Assembly: GCA_018902385.1 (NCBI GenBank)
Contig: JABSSW010000040.1
Span: 124,001 to 188,000 of the forward strand
Source of the DNA: Physcia stellaris
Taxonomy: Eukaryota > Ascomycota > Lecanoromycetes > Caliciales > Physciaceae
Length of the DNA: 64,000 nt
Direction: 5' to 3'
The position numbers were made by a program, and so were the translations under genes. The notes under the pieces are model-generated. The model was not told the origin of the DNA and searched no databases. It worked only from the letters and a program-made list of their open reading frames with translations. Below are positions 34,404 through 45,710 of this stretch, piece after piece (position 1 is the stretch's first letter; every line of letters begins with the position of its first letter).

Positions 34404-34530
34404 GCATCACTCGGGTGCAGAAAGCTGTAGAATCCTTGGCATCGAAAAATTTTAACTTTTCCCCTCTCTCTACCCGTTTTTAGTGCATTTTGTGAAATTT
34501 AAAAGACTCATCAACGTCATCGAACATTTT
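34404..34530 (+). repeat. Left terminal inverted repeat
   Basis: Near-perfect inverse copy of 45582-45710. The few differences I can align are C/T transitions, in the tract TTTTCCCCTCTCTCTACCC against TTTTTTCCTCCTTTTACCC, and near the inner end. Confidence 0.9.
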
Positions 34531-35834
34531 CTTCTCATTATCGTCAGTATTGCATGCTCTGAAACTTCGATATATTTCGCTTAGCGATTTTTTGATGTTT
34601 GCTTACTGTCTGCATCATGAATCGTTCATTTTCTGTTTTCGTGATTTTCAAAATTCATCGATATTTATTTTTTCATTGACGTTTCGATGCGATTGCAAAT
34701 GAATTACATTGTAATTTTGCAATCGTGTACAAAATACAAAAAAACATGTTTATATATGATCAAACGACGAAATCTACGTGTATTTATCGATTTCGAAACG
34801 TTTTTGATCGCATCAATCTCGTCGTCGAAAAATTTTTGATCACATATCTTGAAAAACAGTCATGAACATATCAAAAAAAAATGATGTTGTTTTTGTGAAA
34901 AAAATGAAATTTAAACGTACATCGATTCACGATAAAAAAATTGTTGAAAAAAATCAAATAAAATCATAAACAAAAACGTCGAATCGAATTTCAAAACGAA
35001 AATTTTCGCATTCAATGATTTTTAGATTTGTTAAATGTTATCGCGAAACAATTCGTTTTTATCGACGAATCGTTATTCAACGAAATCATTGATTGACGTA
35101 TGCGAACGTATGTTTTCATTGATGAACAAACTAAATATCACGCGTGTATCAATAAAAAAAAAACATGAAATGTATTTTTTGCGTATACGACAAAAAATTA
35201 ATTCAATGCATGCGCATTCGACATTCAACGTGAATTGATTATTTTATTCAAATTATTTACATTGTACGAATTACAAAAAAAATTATTACAATGCGAACGA
35301 GTTTTACATTTGATTGAATTTACATTTTTTTTTATGCAATGTTTGATTCAAATTTCGAAACGTTATTATCATGAACAACGTCAACATTCATATAAATTTT
35401 CGAATTCAACAACTCATTGAATCATATGATTGTCGAATCAAATATTTTTCATCGTACTCATCGAATTTCAATTCAATTGAACTCAATTTTTCAGTTTTGA
35501 AAGCATGAATCAGAAAATATTACAACGAAATGTGATCACTTTTCGACGACAATTTCGATGATTTTTTACGATACGCGATGAATCAAAATCAATGTGATCG
35601 TTTTGCGAAAAAACATTTCAAATACAGTGCGCAAAAAAATTATATTTTCGAAAACGATATTCAGACATGTAATGAGCGTTTGATCAACGATAATATCGAG
35701 TTCGAAAATTTTCGATAAAAATGAGTTGTTCGTTTTATTTTCAACTTTTCATTTATTCGTGATTCAACGAACTAGATGTATAGCAAAAAACAATATTGTA
35801 ACTAAATCAATAAATTCAGAACTAACTATTTTAC

Positions 35835-36113
35835 TGTAAGAAACATGGCATCAGAGATGTATAACAGAGACAATAGTATGATTAGACTAATAATTGCAAA
35901 ACTAATTGCCTTGCAGATTTCGCAATATATACTCGTTTTGTTTGTTGAATTGTACGAATTTCTGAATTCTTGCGCATGAATATTTAATCGATATGCGATA
36001 TGCGTGTTGAGTGATTAATATGATGAAATTGATCGTTTCATGAATTGATGTTTCGAATCATAACGAAATTCGATTCGCACTTTTTGCAAATTTTGAATTT
36101 TGAATTTTTTACA
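35835..36113. repeat. Left LTR (279 bases)
   Basis: Aligns without gaps to 41825-42103 with 258 of 279 bases identical by my hand alignment; all 21 differences are transitions. Confidence 0.9.
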
Positions 36114-36779
36114 CGCGTTTTCTTCTAAACATCGAAATCTTTTGAAATAACAATATCATTTGATCTGAATCATTGTTGAAATTACACGTTGTATGCTGTA
36201 TTCGTAAAACTTGAAAAATCATTGTGATCGTGATTTTCGCATCGATATCTCGAAATTCTGAGCTTGAAAAAACACTGTAATCGTGATCTTCGCATTCGAA
36301 ATATCATTCATCTCGATTCATATCAATTTGCATTAAAAATCTGAAAATCATCTTCGTGAATGACTCAGAAAAAGCATGATCTGATGATTTCACTGTTTGC
36401 TGCTTTCAATATCGAGAACTTGATTTCGTACAATTCACAATTCACGATCTGATAACTGACAACTGATTGAATGACAAAAAAATCGAATTCGAATTCTTCT
36501 TTATCTCTTCATTTTTTTATTTCATATACGATTGAAATCGACGAGTTATTGTAAAGACGTGATTAAACGCGAAAGACGTCGTAATCGCGATCGCATTGAA
36601 TATCAAACTTCGAAAATTTTTTCGATTTTCTATTTCTATTTGATCATCACATTCACAATCTTATCGCTCGATTAGATCGAACAGCAATTTTGAAAATGTT
36701 TCTGACACGATTCAGCTCTTCATGCGTCGTAAACTCTAAACAGTAAACAGCACGAAATTCGTGACATGAAATCGTGATG

Positions 36780-37300
36780 CAAACATGATTGTTTTCGAAT
36801 CAATTGCTTTGTCAAAGAAATTATATCTGCAATACGCTGAACGCGTCATGATATTGAATATTGACTTTCAAATACGTTTCGTTGCATAACTTGATCATGA
36901 GTTGATCATTTGTTCGTGACTGTAAAGCGTCGATCGTTTTTGACATAATTATTCGAATCAATTATTTCATCAAAAATTGCATCTACAAAACGTTTGAACG
37001 CGTCATGATATTGAATTATTTTCGAGTCGATTGTATCATCAAAAAAATTGCATTGTGATGTTATTGATCTTCAGATATCTTTTCGTTGTACGATTTGATC
37101 GAAACTTGATCGCGATATTGACATGATTGTTTTCGAGTCAATTGTTTTATTCAATGAATTACATTTACAAAACGCTTGAGCGCGTCGTGATACTGTATGA
37201 CAATTTCAATCAATTGTATCATCAGAAAAATTGCATAAATCGTGCTGTTGATTTTCAAATTCGTTTTCGCTGTACGACTTGCCGTGACTTGATCACTGAT
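36780..37300. repeat. Degenerate tandem repeat, period about 170-200 bases
   Basis: About three diverged copies carry, in order, ATGATTGTTTTCGA, TCAATTG, AAATT[AG]CAT, CGTCATGATA or CGTCGTGATA, TTTCGTTGTACGA-like and TTGATC blocks. They lie inside the LTR element's internal region. Confidence 0.65.
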
Positions 37301-37884
37301 TCGTGATTATTTTCTTATCAATGTCGATATCTTATAAGCTGATTCGTGAATTTTAGCGAAATTCTGACGAAACTCTCTTTTTTCTTTTAGCTTGAACTTT
37401 CTTAGAAAACAAAACGACATGTTTGACTGTTTCGAATCTTGAACTGTGTATATAAACAGCATCGCGAAATCGCGCGTTGATTCGCAAAATTGACTTATTT
37501 TTGAAAAATCTCGACAGAATTTCGAACGATGATATTTTTGATGAATTATTCATTGCAAATCATTTTTTTATGAACAATCAATTGTTCGTCAATTGTGTTT
37601 TGCATAATCAAAAAAGTTATGAAATTGTGTTTTCGAAAAAATTTTTGCGATCGTTAATTTCGTGATAATTCATGTTCTATTTTTTGATAATTTGTTATGA
37701 AATTTACGTAAAATTAATTCATATCAATGCTTATTGAATTGAGACGATAGCTTATCGTGTAATTTGAATGAAATGTTTGTTTGCACATTTTCGATTCATG
37801 TTCGCATGTCTAAATTCTGTCAAAATGTCGACAACATTTTTGCAATTGCTGATCTTACGCAAATGCTAAAATATGAAAAAATGT

Positions 37885-38330
37885 CATTGACGCATGCAAA
37901 TTGACTTCTGTATGCGCTGTTCGAACGAAATGCTTTGCAATTGATTTGTATTTCGCTTTCGACTTGTGCATTACATGTGAAAATATAAAGAAATTCTGAC
38001 GAAATGTTTGCACGATCTATATGTCTCGCAATTTCCGATCGTTGCTTGCGCAAAAATATGACGAAATGCTGAATTTTGCTCACGCATGTCTCATAGTTTG
38101 ACTTTTTTCGTATGCTTCAGTTTGAACGAAATGTCTTGTCAATTGATTTATGTTTCGATTTCAACTTGCGCACTACACATGAAAATATACAGAAATCTTG
38201 ACGAGATGTCTGCACGATTTATATGTCTCGCAATTTATGATTTCGTAATATTTTTTGATTCTTGTTTACATATTCAAATCTTGTCGAGATGTCTACAAGA
38301 TTTATATATTTCGCAATTTACGATCGCTGT
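37885..38330. repeat. Degenerate tandem repeat, period about 185 bases
   Basis: Two long copies and one partial copy share GAACGAAATG, CAATTGATTT, GAAAATATA, GACGA[AG]ATGT and TATATGTCTCGCAATTT blocks in the same order. Confidence 0.75.
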
Positions 38331-38410
38331 CTGTATGCTAGAATCGTGCTCGATGTTCGACAAATCATTTCGTTTATTGAATTCGATTTGCAATATTTTC
38401 GTATTGATTT

Positions 38411-38490
38411 CAAGATGCGTTTTACATCGAAATGCTTGATCAAATGCGTTTCACATCAAGAAATGCTCGATCAAATGCGTTTCACATTGA
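38411..38490. repeat. Short tandem repeat, unit about 32 bases
   Basis: Three successive units of the form ATGCGTTT[TC]ACAT followed by GAAATGCT[TC]GATCAA, with small variations. Confidence 0.75.
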
Positions 38491-41400
38491 TGAATCGATC
38501 AAAAATTGTTTTGCAATAGCAACGTTTTCTCTAATGACAATGCGAACGTGATGTATCAGAAATAGCTAATTTCTGTTTCACGTCGTCATTGCTTGACAAC
38601 GAGATTGTCGCTTGTCAATAAACAATGAAGCGTCATTGCTTATATCAGATTCGTAAATATGTTTTTGCGTAATCATTTTCATTAAAATCGACTCGAGAAT
38701 TGTTGCATTATTCAATATTACTGTACTCAACGAACATCACGTTTGATGCGCGACGATGAACAAAAAAAACGAAATCGTCGAAATCGCACGTCACTCGTTG
38801 TTAAAAATTCGAATTCGCAACTTTTCTTCGAAAACTATTCGAATTCGCAATATTTTTCGTGATTTGATCTTTGCGTTTGCTTAAATTACATCGAAATGAC
38901 TTGAAAAATTATTATCATCGTGATCTCTTCGTCTAACAAATTCGATTTGATCGAACGTTTGCAAAAATCGTTGCAATCACGACATCAAACTGACGATTGT
39001 TTTTATCTCAAATCGACGATTGTTTCAGTCTTTTTCTCAGTGATTTCTTGATCGAATCGTCAGAATAAGTCGTTCGTTTTGCAAAATTTTCGTTGCCGAA
39101 ACGATGATCGATGACGAGATTGTGTTCATCGTGCTTGTTGAAATTTCGATGACATCGTGATCAAAAAATGCTCATGACTTATTGCGTTGCAAAAATCATC
39201 GTGACGAAAAATAAAACTTATTGTTTCGTTTTGAGCGTCAATTTTCATACGAACGATTTAGTCGAATCGAATTGTTGCAAAATAAATGTTTTCAAAACAT
39301 TTCAAAAGTACGTTTCGTCGACGTTTAAAAGTTTGATTGTTTCGTCAATTGTTTTATGATTCGCGAAGCGTATAATTTTCGACCGAATATATTCAACGTA
39401 TAGTTTTAAGCGTTTGATTTATTGTGCGAACGAATCAACAAAACAAAAACAAAATGTTGTACTCAACAATCTATAGCTCGTTTTAACGTCGTTTAGCGTT
39501 TGTATTCTGCTTTGTGCGAAGTCTGTTGCATGTCGCATGTCGCAATCATATAAAAAATTGTAATTGCGAAACACGTTGCTCGTGCAATCATATGATTTAT
39601 ACAGATATGAGTTTTCGTCGAACGATGATGATCAAATGTTTCATAAAGCTTGTATAAACGACGAATCTTCGTCGAACAATTGAACGATATTATTGACGTT
39701 TTCGCCGAACGATATATTTCGTTTTTGACGTCGCTTGCGTTCGTCATTTGCTTTACATGAAGTCTGCTATATGTTGCACTTGTAAATATAGATGTGAAAC
39801 TTTCGTCGAGCGATGATATGATAAAATGAACGTTTTCGCCGAACGATTTCTTGATCAAATGATAAATTGACTCGTAAAAAGTAACAAAACTGAAAAATCT
39901 TTTGATAAAATCGTTTTCAATGCTTGCACAACATATTCTCGTTATCTAAATATTCAATCAAGTATATTCTCGATACTGTTAATCATCTTTCGATAAGAAA
40001 TAGATGAAACTATGAGATGATTTCTTGTTCAGTTGCATGTCCGTGATTCATTGCGAACTCGTCAAACATATCGCATGCTCGACAGATTTGTTGCATGCTC
40101 ATTGAGCAAATTGTATGTTCGTCAAATTCATTATTTGTCAGATTCGAAAATCTTGTTGTGAATTTCTCTTGAAAATATCTTGATTTTCGATAAAACTAAA
40201 TTTATACGAGCTCATTGTTCAAGATGCGCTTCATGCGAAGTCGTATTCTCGTTACGATGTACTCGTACGAATACACCGAAAATTTTATACTGACTATAAG
40301 TAACAGAATCGATTGTTTTTTCCGACTCGAGATGCTCGAAACGATTATGATGAAAAGATTTTGCATTGAAGAATGTCAAGATCGAATTTGATCGATATAT
40401 TCATTTTGATTTTGCTGTATCGAGAACAGTTTCACGAAATCGATTGATTCAAATCAATTTTTAGAAGTTTTCATTCAGAAAGCGTCTGAAATCGTTCTTG
40501 TTCAAAACTGATATTCGTACGAAACAAACGTCATGAATCTGAATTAACTGCTGCTCAATGTCGCAACATCGTGACTAGAAATTTGAAACGAAATTGCTTT
40601 GAATTCAGCGAAAACATTACTTTTCAAACTGATCTTTGCATTTGAAATCGATGTGATTTCGTATTCATATCATGAATTTAATTGCTTAGTCATTTGAAAT
40701 TGTTTGCGACGACGCTTGATGCGAATGTCTGCAACGTTCGTCGCAAGAATTCGTCGTCGCTATACTTTTTGCTCATTGCTTATTGTCTATAGAAACGTTC
40801 ATTATGCAATGTGAACTTGATTCAAAATGATCAAATATTTTAATTGTTGTTTATTTCAAAATCAATTTTTGCAAAATCAACATTTTTCTTGTGAAACAAT
40901 TTGAATTTTTTGAAATTCAAATACGTTCTGTTTGTTGCATCGCAATTGACGCGATCGAAACGTCGACGATACAATGTATTTTGATTGACTTTCTGTTAAT
41001 TTTATCGAACGTGAATTTTTTATCATTTTGATTTTGAATTGCATTGCATTCATGCGATTTCGCAATCATGTCATTTCTCGATCTGAAATTGTATTGCAAT
41101 CGAACGATTTCGCATTCGTGTCATTTCTAAATCGTGAAAGAAAAATCTTATTGAAACTGTTATGTGATTTTCTGAATATTTTATTATGCTCTTGCTGAGA
41201 TCAGCATTCATTTGCTTTTGAAAACGTTCTTGATATTCAGATTTTTGATGTTTTGCAATGAAAACAAAACAGTCGAAATCGTTGTTCTCGAATTGTTACT
41301 CGATGACTTGAATATAAAATAACGAAAATTCGTTTCGCATCGAAGTTTCGGCAAATTGCGCAAACTTTTTCAAACGTCTTGATGTTCTTGACTTGCTGTT

Positions 41401-41824
41401 ATTGTTGTGAATAATCGAAATCTGAAATGATCGACGCTTGTCGTTGAAAACGTCAATGAAATCGAATGATTGAAGTCACGTTTGTAAATTCGTTGTAAAT
41501 TTCACATTGTTGAAGATAGCTTGTTCTGCAAAATCTGTCTAGATTTTTTCGTTGTAATTTTTCAAGCACGAGCTCGCTTTCTAGATTGCACAATGCGTGA
41601 TAGTAGAGCAATACAATCAATCAAAATTGCGATATTTAACTGTATAGTGTAAACACTTCGAGCTCGATGACATTGTTTCTCATTTCAACTCTTGTAGTAT
41701 CGATTTCTCGTTCAAATCGAATTCTGAGAACGTAGCACGCGTTCAATCATTGAGAACGTTCAATCGTTTGACTGTTAGTTATACACGAGTGATGCTAATC
41801 TACTGATTATTGTAATTATTAAAA

Positions 41825-42103
41825 TGTAAAAAACATGACATCAGAAATGTATAGCAGAAACAATAATATGATTAGACTAATAATTGCAAAACTAATTGTC
41901 TTGCAAATCTCGCAATATATACTCGTTCTGTCTGTTGAATTGTACGAATTTCTGAATTTCTGCGCATGAATATTTAATCGATATGCGATATGCGTGTTGA
42001 ATGACTAATATGATGAAACTGATCGTTTCATGAATTGATGTTTCGAATCATGACAAAATTCGATTCGCACTTTTTGCAGATTTTGAACTCTGAATTTTTT
42101 ACA
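41825..42103. repeat. Right LTR (279 bases)
   Basis: Partner of the left LTR. It is followed at once by TTTAC, the copy of the 5 bases preceding the left LTR. Confidence 0.9.
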
Positions 42104-42554
42104 TTTACAGAATTTCGTTCATATAATCGATTAATTTGCTCAAATGTACACACATTTCGAAATTTATTCGCAAATATGAATTTGTTGAATTCAATCAAAA
42201 ATTTGATGTTGACGTCGTCAAATTGATTCTTTTCGTGATTCAGCGAATCAAATGTATAGCATGAAACAATATCATGATTAAATCAATAATTGCAAAATTA
42301 ACTATCTTACGAAGTTCTGTTCATATGATCGATTAATTTGCTCAATTGTACACACATTTCGAAATTTATTCGCAAATATAAACTTGTTGAATTCAATCGA
42401 AAATTTGATGTTGACGTCGTCAAATTGATTCTTTTCGTAATTCAGCGAATTTGAATGATCGAAATATTTTTCGTCGAATTTTCACATTTTCATTTATTTA
42501 TTCAATTATCTATTTATTCATCTTTTTATTATCATATTTTTCATCGTTTTTATT

Positions 42555-43045
42555 TCGCATTTTGTTTTTTTTGCATTCATTTTTCTCATTCAATCGATCT
42601 TTCGCATTCTTCAAAGTTTTCGCAAAATTTTCAAATTGTTTCGTCGTTGTCTCATCGCTTTCAATGTTTACTCTTCAGTTCATTTCGCGAAAATTCGTAT
42701 CAATTAATCAATTCTACGATACGAACTGAATACGAATTTAATTCGTTTGAAATTTTCTTGAATTGTTTCGTCGAATTTCTATAGCAAAATTCAAAAATTT
42801 TCATTTTGACAAATTTCGTTCTTCGAAACTTATGTTCAAAAAGCAATGTTACGAAACTATTTTAATTTTTGAACGTATTACGTTTAGTCAAATCAAATAT
42901 ACGAAACATGCGCGATCGAAATCAAAAAACAAACATTGAAAGCGATTGAAAAACGACGAAACAATCTGAAAATGTTGCGAAAAATTTGAAAAAAAAGAGT
43001 GAATGAAATTCGAAAAAAATGAAAAATGTGTCGCATGCGAAATAA
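42555..43045. repeat. Inverted repeat pair in the island
   Basis: Arm 42555-42680 and the reverse complement of 42915-43045 share TTTCAATGTTT, GTTTCGTCGT and TTTCGCA blocks in order. The arms are about 120 bases with a spacer of about 240 bases. Confidence 0.65.
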
Positions 43046-43174
43046 ATGCAATCATGTAAAATTTTGTTCGAAATATATGTTAATCGATTAATTCGAATTC
43101 GATTTTCAATCAAAACTTTCGACAATGTAATTTCATTTCGTTTGATGTGATTTTCGTTAATTGTCAAAATATAT

Positions 43175-43435
43175 CAGAAATCTGTCATACAAAAACGTCT
43201 CGTTCTCGAATTAAAATCAAAAAATAAATTAAATCTTATCGAAAAACTCGAATAGTTACTCGAATAATTGATCAATAATTGAAATTTTTTCTTTTTCATT
43301 TTCTGAAACTATCAAGAGTTTATCATACAAAAACGTCTCGTTTTCCGAACAAAGTCAAAAAAAAAATTCGATTTTGTTGAAAAATTCGAATAATTGATCA
43401 TCAAATCAAATTTTTCATTTTTGCAATCTTTTTAT
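43175..43435. repeat. Direct repeat pair, about 110-130 bases each
   Basis: Both copies contain TCATACAAAAACGTCTCGTT, a poly-A tract, then CGAATAATTGATCA and a TTTTTCATTTT end. They begin near 43185 and 43325. Confidence 0.75.
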
Positions 43436-43481
43436 CATATTATTTTTTCGATCAATACATTCGTCGAATCGACTAATCTCT

Positions 43482-43679
43482 CTATTGCGACGAATTGAAA
43501 TTTTGAAATTGTTGTTGTTGTTGTGCAAACGAAAATTGATATATCGACATAAAATTCTGTTGATAAAGCATTTGCATCGATTGTACGTACGAATTGACGT
43601 ATTGTTGTTGCATCGATTGTTGCATCGATTGTTGCATCGATTGATGAAATTGCTGCATTGCAAACTGATGTTGTTGCAC
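43482..43679 (-). pseudogene. Gln-rich frame fragment in the island
   Basis: A 65-residue frame rich in Gln with repeats of the type QSMQQSMQQ, built on a 12-base DNA repeat (GTTGCATCGATT on the plus strand, near 43608-43645). It could be a relic of a low-complexity tail of an element protein, or simple-sequence DNA by chance. No domain recognised. Confidence 0.3.
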
Positions 43680-45581
43680 GAAAAGTTATTGTTGAAACGA
43701 CTGCACATATGAATTCTGATACATTACAAATTACTAAAATTGTTGTTGATATGATTGATACATCGATATCGAAAAACAAACATCATAAAAAAATAAACAA
43801 CGAAAAAAACATTGAATTTTTGCGAAATTTGCTTATTTGTCGATGCAATCATTTTGATCAATAATTGATTTTTCATTTTTTGACATCGCATTTTCAATTT
43901 TTGTTCACGAAATTTTTCGAGTTTTGCAAATCAATCGTTCGCGAAAAAATTTTGTTTTTGTTTGATTTTTTTTTTTTTCTAATTGTTGCAAAATCTTTTT
44001 GTTGTTGTCGTCAATGAAATTTTGTTTTTGAATAAACTCAAAATACAATTCAAACGATGATTTTAACTCATTTGTTTTGTTAAAAATGATTCATATTGTA
44101 ATGCAATTTTTCTCAATCGACGAAACATCAAACGCATTTTCTTGAATTGATGCAACGTTCATCGTCACATTTTCAATGCATGACAAATTTCTTTTGACGT
44201 CGAATTATTTCGTCATCAACGAATTGAATCGTCGTTTGATTTTTGAATTTATCAATACGAATTAACGATTTTTTCGAAACAAATGTAATGAATTTCACAA
44301 AATCGAAAAAAAACGTCTCGATAATTCGCTTAACGATTTGTTTCGTTTTTTTGATTGTTTTCTGTGTAACAGTTTTTTTGACGACGACGAACGTTGAATC
44401 GATTTGATCGATGATGTTTATTTTGATAAATCATTCGAACTTATCGCGTCGTTGTGCTTCGACGATGATATATTCGATGATTCGATTTCATTGAAAAAAA
44501 ATGAAATTTTTCAAGATGAAATTCGTGTAAATTTCATTTTTAACGATTTTCAGTCTAATCATTATATTAGTGATTTTTCAATCGAATTCATGATCATTTT
44601 TGATTTGTATACGATTTTGAAAATTCAATTCGAATTGTACGATATTGAAATCGCTGAAAAAACGTTGCGAATAAAAACAACATCATTGCGTTGTTTTGTC
44701 AATTCGAAAAGAAATTTTCAAAACAATTTTAAAATCATTGCATTTTTCATTCAATTTCAATCGATTCAATTCAAATGTAAATATGATATTCGCATCACGT
44801 GCGACGATCAATTTTTTCATTCGACGACGACGTGCTTCGTCGATTTCATATTTATCGATTTTTTTTTTTCATTCGATTTTTTTTCGAATTGTTTCGACGT
44901 TCTTTTTAACGACATAACGTTGATGATTTGTTAAATCTCGTTGTTGTTCAATTTTATGTGATTTTCGAACTCGTTGAACATTTTTATTGTTGTCAAATTT
45001 TCGTTCAATGATGTTTGCATTGATCGCAAAAGATCGAAATTATTTTCAATACATGAAAAAAAAAATCGTGCGCAATGAAAAAACGTGAAACAATAAAAAA
45101 ACGTAAAAACGAAAAATTTTTTACAACAAAAATTGATCGATTAGCGTTTGCAAAAAAAAAAAAAAAAAAAATTGCATTTCGACGACGACGTTTCTCGTTG
45201 TCAACATTTTCGAATTCAAAAACGATTTTTTCAAATTGACGTTTATATTTTTTTTCATCGCGTTGAGTTTTCGTCTCGATTTTTTTCAATGTTTTAAATT
45301 TTTTTTTTTTTTCGCGACGACGAACGATTTTCGTTTTTTTCGTCTTTTTTTTTTTGTTGACGACGATTGATTTTTTCGACAATTTCACGAACACGAATTT
45401 CGTTTTGTTTACGAATTCGTTTGATTTTGACGAAATTTCGAAAAATTCGTTTTATTATTTTATCGACGTCATTTGATTTTGAACGAATGATACGATTTTC
45501 AATCATGTTGAAAAAAAAATCAAACATCAAAAAATGATTAAACGAATTATACAAAATCGAAAACAACGAAATTGTTGAAAA

Positions 45582-45710
45582 AAAAGATGTTCGATGACGT
45601 TGATGAATCTTTTAAATTTCACAAAATGCACTAAAAACGGGTAAAAGGAGGAAAAAAGTTAAAATTTTTCGATGCCAAGGATTCTACAGCTTTCTGCACC
45701 CGAGTGATGC
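45582..45710 (-). repeat. Right terminal inverted repeat
   Basis: Partner of the left repeat. Its outer end is 117 bases upstream of the heme lyase start codon. Confidence 0.9.

Follow-up and report, generated by a model that had tools for sequence, protein, structure and literature searches.

A RIP-like hypermutation that targets CpC and CpT and largely spares CpA in repeats of the lichen fungus Physcia stellaris

Introduction

The 64,000-nucleotide stretch of DNA of Physcia stellaris (Lecanoromycetes, Caliciales, Physciaceae) analyzed here (the window; assembly GCA_018902385.1, contig JABSSW010000040.1, positions 124,001 to 188,000) carries at positions 35835-42103 an element bounded by two long terminal repeats (LTRs) that differ from each other only by transitions. 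A preliminary description of this DNA, made from the letters alone, noticed that the mutated C is mostly followed by T, and proposed a mutator of duplicated DNA with a specificity other than the CpA preference of classical repeat-induced point mutation (RIP). The locus thus raises the question of which cytosines are mutated, in which repeats, and by what kind of activity. We report that C-to-T changes in the sampled repeats fall on CpC first and on CpT second, that CpA and CpG are nearly untouched, and that the whole is probably explained by a RIP-like, repeat-directed mutator, a cytosine-5 methyltransferase that would read the 3' pyrimidine. Mutation of fungal repeats is mostly regarded as aimed at CpA, and according to the available text of a survey of 1,239 species, RIP-like defences share a CpA preference (Badet and Croll 2025, PMC12543289), to which the Physcia stellaris pattern is an exception. 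The published assembly of the species, made from an ascospore culture, is described as 46.57 Mb in 184 scaffolds with 43.3% G+C (PMC7513301). The genome searched here comprises 43,974,083 bases in 147 contigs, and its repeats were sampled rather than aligned genome-wide. A methyltransferase encoded on its contig C5 shares 99% identity with a Physcia stellaris protein.

The LTR pair of the window

Each LTR is 279 bases long, and their gap-free alignment shows 21 differences, every one a transition. Sorted by the base that follows the mutable C, 17 lie at CpT, two at CpC, one at CpA and one at CpG; these figures, and the positions of both repeats (Table 1), reproduce the preliminary description exactly. 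The excess at C followed by a pyrimidine (CpY) has a binomial p of 1.3e-8 against a CpY share of 0.30 among all C sites of the pair. Because the element has TG...CA ends and is flanked on either side by TTTAC, it represents a real LTR insertion. The cytosines kept in both LTRs number nine at CpT, none at CpC, 40 at CpA and 23 at CpG, and it is because CpC is exhausted in both that CpT runs ahead of CpC in this pair. The proposed preference for CpY over CpA therefore stands, while the order within CpY has to be revised to CpC first, then CpT.

The LTR element is hosted by another element with terminal inverted repeats (TIRs), which differ from each other at eight positions, six CpT and two CpC; all eight are C/T changes before a pyrimidine, as had been remarked for those differences that could be aligned. 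CpC/GpG amounts to about 2 per kb over the whole LTR element and to about 119 per kb in the window's gene part, and CpA/TpG and CpG are undiminished in the element. The CpY-depleted island that surrounds it stops abruptly at genic DNA of ~50% G+C. Genic DNA within the window is normal, and in the regions sampled the mutations may be confined to repeats. The outer 75 bases of the TIRs (34404-34478 and 45636-45710) retain nine and eight CpC/GpG, the remainder retaining none, and their outermost ~50-60 bases match several other places at 90-97%.

Mutation context in the LTR-element family

In the search for this non-coding LTR element, 40 of 197 candidates were scored and 20 stretches fetched. 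The 21 element regions, the window's included, comprise 15 at G+C 0.24-0.37, four fresh copies (L047-L050, 0.50-0.51) and two intermediates (L046, 0.476, and L054, 0.425). CpC+GpG per region amounts to 706-743 in the fresh copies vs 0-74 in the 15 mutated regions, and CpT+ApG to 852-912 vs 60-621. CpA+TpG, at 888-920 in the fresh copies, is 792-929 in 13 of the 15 mutated regions and 1005 and 1260 in the longer L038 and L039, and CpG lies within or near the fresh range in all 15. Clean mutation rates were taken from pairs with <1% transversions. The cleanest pair of this family, the little-mutated L046 to L037 (0.9% transversions), shows C-to-T changes at 511/552 CpC, 464/830 CpT, 35/798 CpA and 13/650 CpG. 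These losses vary little with the 5' base, are equal on both strands and are spread fairly evenly over the element. L046 seems to represent an early stage of mutation; its LTRs differ at five CpC, no CpT, one CpA and one CpG, plus four transversions.

The 19 LTR pairs require no reference copy. Nineteen of the 21 transitions of the window pair lie at CpY, and so do 198 of the 259 pooled over the other 18 pairs (17 CpC, 181 CpT, 50 CpA and 11 CpG, besides 16 transversions). The LTR pairs of L048, L049 and L050 show zero differences, and L048 stands at ~11% transversions from L047, L049 and L050.

The surroundings of 30 LTR loci were divided into 500-base bins on either side, partly inside the elements, and G+C is below 0.40 in 163 of the 180 bins. 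CpC/GpG per kb is at most 6 in 143 of these low-G+C bins, 6-20 in 12 and higher in eight, while the remaining 17 bins all have at least 46. Median CpA+TpG per kb is 130 in the low-G+C bins and 138 in the others, and doubled CpG is 112 and 104 per kb, respectively. At L034, mutated DNA adjoins an unmutated LTR end, the edge being resolved to ~100 bases; the edges of mutated DNA are sharp in the places inspected.

Three side observations concern individual copies. The fresh copies L048 and L049 contain no frame of at least 200 residues in about 6 kb, and the LTR-element family looks non-autonomous. L038/L039 (contig C44) include an LTR pair 17 kb apart within CpY-depleted DNA and probably contain nested insertions. 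Positions 1800-2700 of L030, at G+C 0.14-0.17 with CpC and CpT absent and CpA and CpG low too, are very old or otherwise altered sequence.

Context and timing in a Ty3-type retrotransposon

The second family is a Ty3-type retrotransposon with RVT_1, RNase H and integrase zinc domains (Pfam); no DNA similarity was detected between its fresh reference copy, L062, and the fresh LTR-element copies L048 and L049. Eight copies hand-picked from 40 scored matches, with 0.4% transversions to L062, have mutated 1074/1165 CpC, 1121/1583 CpT, 76/1443 CpA and 25/1194 CpG, corresponding to rates (-ln(1-f)) of 2.55, 1.23, 0.054 and 0.021. Between the fresh copies L062 and L063, transversions amount to 0.5% and 5/149 CpC have changed; each of the eight mutated copies lies at 0.3-0.7% transversions from L062 with 80-99% of its CpC changed. 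Since the mutated copies show no transversion excess over the fresh pair, their state reflects a burst of mutation and not age, and the action in this family is burst-like. The sharing of mutated sites between copies is weak (median phi 0.16 at CpT and 0.29 at CpC). One pair, L067/L068, shares most of its mutated sites (phi 0.76 at CpT and 0.71 at CpC), and looks like one mutated history later duplicated or converted.

The timing bears on the alternative that survives best, a slow decay in which CpY in repeats is stably methylated, for instance by a DIM-2-like enzyme, and lost by spontaneous deamination with no burst. Such a process would fit the graded hierarchy of CpC, CpT, CpA and CpG, and a gene that we take to be DIM-2-like is present in the genome. 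It would also fit Neurospora DIM-2, a non-CpG methyltransferase reported to methylate all CpN with a preference for CpT (PMC13297926), although the available text of that report describes methylation, not a CpC-first, CpA-spared mutation. However, copies that have lost 80-99% of their CpC at the transversion level of the fresh pair speak against slow decay, which we consider unlikely; a RIP-like burst process is probable.

Dependence on flanking bases

Across flanking bases other than the +1 base, the CpT rate in the Ty3 copies ranges from 0.62 to 0.83. The context of CpC, then CpT, nearly independent of the 5' base, is observed by alignment in three repeats (the Ty3-type element, the non-coding LTR element and the TIR element), and by composition in some DNA transposons. 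A target choice governed solely by the 3' base is more in line with a methyltransferase than with a deaminase. Agents such as AID/APOBEC deaminases and ultraviolet (UV) light read the 5' base. An AID/APOBEC-type cytidine deaminase, or UV damage at dipyrimidines, would account for C-to-T changes on either strand, but TpC in the Ty3 copies is spared before A (20/532) and before G (4/476), and the four 5' bases behave alike; both contexts were rejected for this small 5' effect, and an origin of this kind is very unlikely. A search of the genome for APOBEC_N returned no match, the control genomes giving none either.

CpA, stop codons and leftover reading frames

The coding consequences of the mutations were followed in reverse transcriptase (RT) sequences. 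In 150 scored RVT_1 matches out of 527 candidates, with stops transcribed by hand, the in-frame stops comprise 250 TGA, 33 TAA and 3 TAG; 112 matches have TGA alone, 10 have no stop and 28 carry other stops. When single steps are applied to the intact L062 frame, CpY changes produce stops only by turning TGG into TGA (13 sites), CpA changes produce 47 TAA/TAG and CpG changes 21 TGA. A tally made up mostly of TGA therefore speaks against CpA. The leftover frames of at least 150 residues, found in six of the eight mutated Ty3 copies, contain no Pro, 0-0.9% Gly, 3.7-4.5% Gln and 2.2-2.5% His, the whole intact L062 frame having 7.2, 4.9, 3.3 and 2.9%, respectively.

A profile of these "ghost" RT frames matched 2180 proteins, and 66 of the 120 listed have <3% Pro+Gly+Trp. 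The 26 nearest matches keep none of the reference Pro (0/358) or Gly (0/174) but 160/217 Gln and 84/117 His. The 40 more distant matches low in these three residues keep 27/539 Pro and 24/262 Gly, vs 295/445 and 153/215 in 31 controls. With a Pro-poor query and a selection for stop-free frames, these counts speak for existence, not frequency, and the hosts could include close relatives. The metagenome proteins P0238-P0357 include ghost RT frames without Pro and Gly, some of them on contigs >100 kb, which suggests that CpY mutation may extend beyond one species. The absence of Trp was dropped as a signature, as the loss of a Trp codon in any case terminates a frame, and Trp is retained at the sole reference Trp in 13 of 14 near matches. 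Neither the ghost RT nor a relative of RID-A, one of the methyltransferases described below, could be confirmed in the viral contigs searched.

These data dispose of ordinary CpA-directed RIP at saturation, in which only CpT polymorphism would be left between copies. CpT-rich residual polymorphism might arise in CpA-depleted repeats; alignment-based (RIPCAL-type) counts put CpT above CpA in Neurospora Tad1 (PMC2621366), and for fungi known to be capable of RIP, CpT has been described as the dominant form (PMC7882544). The explanation is nevertheless rejected, with a probability close to nil, because CpA counts hardly change: CpA+TpG is nearly constant in the mutated LTR-element regions, the Ty3 copies have lost CpA at only the few sites given above, and the leftover frames have kept Gln and His. 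A sequencing or assembly artefact, for which the combination of Nanopore and Illumina reads in the published assembly (PMC7513301) might be invoked, is just as improbable, given that the transitions lie in repeats (18.4% between L046 and L037 at 0.9% transversions), that unmutated copies stand in the same assembly and that the same Pro/Gly-free frames occur in other metagenome proteins.

DNA transposons and points that limit the interpretation

Six DNA-transposon loci were cut from ten DDE_1 matches. In L056, L057 and L059, CpC/GpG is down to 0-1 per kb and CpA and CpG lie at ~115-127 per kb; L060 is mutated in its middle. Core pairs among L056, L057 and L060, with 1-6 transversions, differ at 33-44 CpT, 8-16 CpA and 3-4 CpG. 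Losses at CpC and CpT dominate the sampled repeats, with CpA and CpG nearly untouched, in line with the repeat mutator of non-CpA specificity that had been suggested; apart from the exceptions given below, the alignments of sampled repeats yielded neither CpA as the main context nor an absence of bias.

Several observations weigh against a CpY mutator acting on all repeats, or narrow it. The LTRs of two saturated old copies differ mainly or equally at CpA (L036: 16 CpA, 8 CpT, 0 CpC; L053: 7 CpA, 7 CpT, 1 CpG), CpA becoming the residual target in such copies. Among the DDE_1 loci, L055 is unmutated and L058 little changed, and the three pairs involving L059 are mixed (49-58 CpT, 28-41 CpA, 34-36 CpG, 70-74 transversions), which we read as subfamily divergence. 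Exceptions to the rule are of two kinds: late changes in old copies that are already saturated, and the three DNA-transposon comparisons in which the divergent L059 takes part. The four fresh LTR-element copies and the fresh Ty3 pair are unmutated although multi-copy; since unmutated multi-copy repeats exist, the process is not always on. TGA stops can also be reached by CpG steps, at more sites of the intact L062 frame than by CpY steps (21 vs 13), and the exclusion of CpG therefore relies on the alignments. The phi of 0.29 at CpC indicates sharing, or a higher intrinsic mutability, at some sites. Lastly, we infer dependence on repeats from where the mutations lie.

Features of the window

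The limits of the island given in Table 1 are approximate.

Table 1. Coordinates of the mutated elements and their boundaries within the window
Feature	Position	Strand	Basis
5' LTR, CpY-hypermutated	35835..36113	+	LTR-pair alignment
3' LTR, partner of 35835..36113	41825..42103	+	LTR-pair alignment
Internal part of LTR element	36114..41824	+	dinucleotide counts
Left target-site duplication TTTAC	35830..35834	.	sequence
Right target-site duplication TTTAC	42104..42108	.	sequence
Left TIR of the TIR element hosting the LTR element	34404..34533	+	alignment
Right TIR, 8 CpY transitions vs left	45581..45710	-	alignment
CpY-depleted island, approximate limits	34504..45610	.	GC 26-34% (500-base bins)

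Methyltransferase genes and a putative mechanism

The preliminary description advised a search for methyltransferases of the RID and DIM-2 types, and four DNA_methylase matches in the genome correspond to three cytosine-5 methyltransferase genes (L001, L002 and L003/L004), for which the RID and DIM-2 labels are partly our assumption. L002 matches the solved methyltransferase 9bap (E 2e-181), and is presumably DIM-2-like. L001 (RID-A, contig C6) comprises 510 residues from the first in-frame codon, with two introns removed by eye, and L003/L004 (RID-B) 932 residues as P0121. Both display PPCQ and a motif VI of EET or EQT, motifs from which we take them to be RID-like; Pfam and NCBIfam assign both as cytosine-5 methyltransferases, no finer.

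A quick tree was built from RID-A and 73 sequences hand-chosen among 237 returned, 12 of the 74 being dropped for lack of the motif word. In this tree of 62 sequences, which includes no experimentally studied RID, RID-A belongs to a distinct clade of 14 members with a support of 98; the sole other named member is Heterodermia, likewise of the Physciaceae. RID-B groups with many Lecanoromycetes, the deeper joins being weak. The choice between EET and EQT in motif VI was rejected as a RID-A marker, as it varies across the family.

The mutator would turn C into T on either strand where the 3' base is a pyrimidine, CpC being the fastest target, CpT proceeding at about 1/3 to 1/2 of the CpC speed, and CpA and CpG about 50 to 130 times more slowly than CpC. 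Its writer would be a RID/Masc1-class cytosine-5 DNA methyltransferase recognising the +1 base, and the modified (or unmodified) cytosine would then be deaminated, presumably, as during RIP in Neurospora, in the sexual phase. RID-A, a divergent RID-like gene that differs from the type of RID-B known from many Lecanoromycetes, may tentatively be named as the lead candidate for this writer, RID-B and the DIM-2-like gene being candidates as well.

Comparison with known systems

The process in Physcia stellaris resembles canonical RIP in its C-to-T transitions in repeats on either strand, its sharp edges where these were inspected, its burst-like action and, if our labels hold, the presence of RID-like and DIM-2-like genes. 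It differs in nearly sparing CpA, at 76/1443 against 1074/1165 for CpC in the Ty3 copies, and in its RIP indices: against thresholds for RIP of TpA/ApT >= 0.89 and (CpA+TpG)/(ApC+GpT) <= 1.03, all 15 mutated element regions score 0.40-0.51 and 1.35-1.54, on the negative side of both. Because both the CpA preference and the indices were tested and found absent, the CpY mutator, which works like RIP, is not filed here as canonical RIP. Methylation induced premeiotically (MIP) in Ascobolus, being methylation without mutation, does not cover the heavy mutation found here, and AID/APOBEC-type deamination, where the 5' base decides the target, does not cover its small 5' dependence.

CpT mutation per se is not new. 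It occurs alongside CpA in Botrytis, Sclerotinia and Magnaporthe, predominating in Magnaporthe and Botrytis T4, and a RID motif has been proposed for it (PMC4352252). CpT and CpA signatures with raised TpA/ApT are described in Colletotrichum truncatum, where no RID was found (PMC6180176), and in Anisogramma (PMC10998396), and CpT occurs with CpA in some Metarhizium families (PMC4133081). The change of CpT to TpT in repeats is thus common to Physcia stellaris and to Botrytis, Sclerotinia, Magnaporthe, C. truncatum and Anisogramma, but the available text of these reports lists CpA in each and gives no CpC-first, CpA-spared pattern. Repeat hypermutation in a non-standard context is also described in Microbotryum (CpG or TpCpG) and in Aspergillus nidulans MATE (CpG/CpA) (PMC2621366), unlike the present case, where CpG is the most protected context. 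Among other lichen fungi, the repeats of Endocarpon pusillum have classical RIP scores of 1.47 and 0.70 (PMC3897900), and Cladonia rangiformis is described as showing strong RIP with a 16% G+C peak (PMC12542154). No report of CpC-first, CpA-spared mutation was found in the literature searched, most subscription journals lying outside its coverage; it is a spared CpA with CpC in the lead that could not be found there.

Implications

As one possible reading, RID-A, seen among the named sequences in our searches only in Physciaceae, could be a repeat-sensing cytosine methyltransferase acting as a CpY mutator, through which lichen fungi would possess RIP of a second kind. Such a mutator would strip Pro and Gly codons from repeats, and the only stops it could create would arise by changing TGG into TGA. 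The usual RIP indices score these repeats as negative, and index-based surveys may therefore miss such defences, just as CpA-tuned tools may misread such genomes. With a CpY mutator and two RID-like genes in one genome, the question of what sets the target context of RIP becomes testable by comparing or swapping the paralogues.

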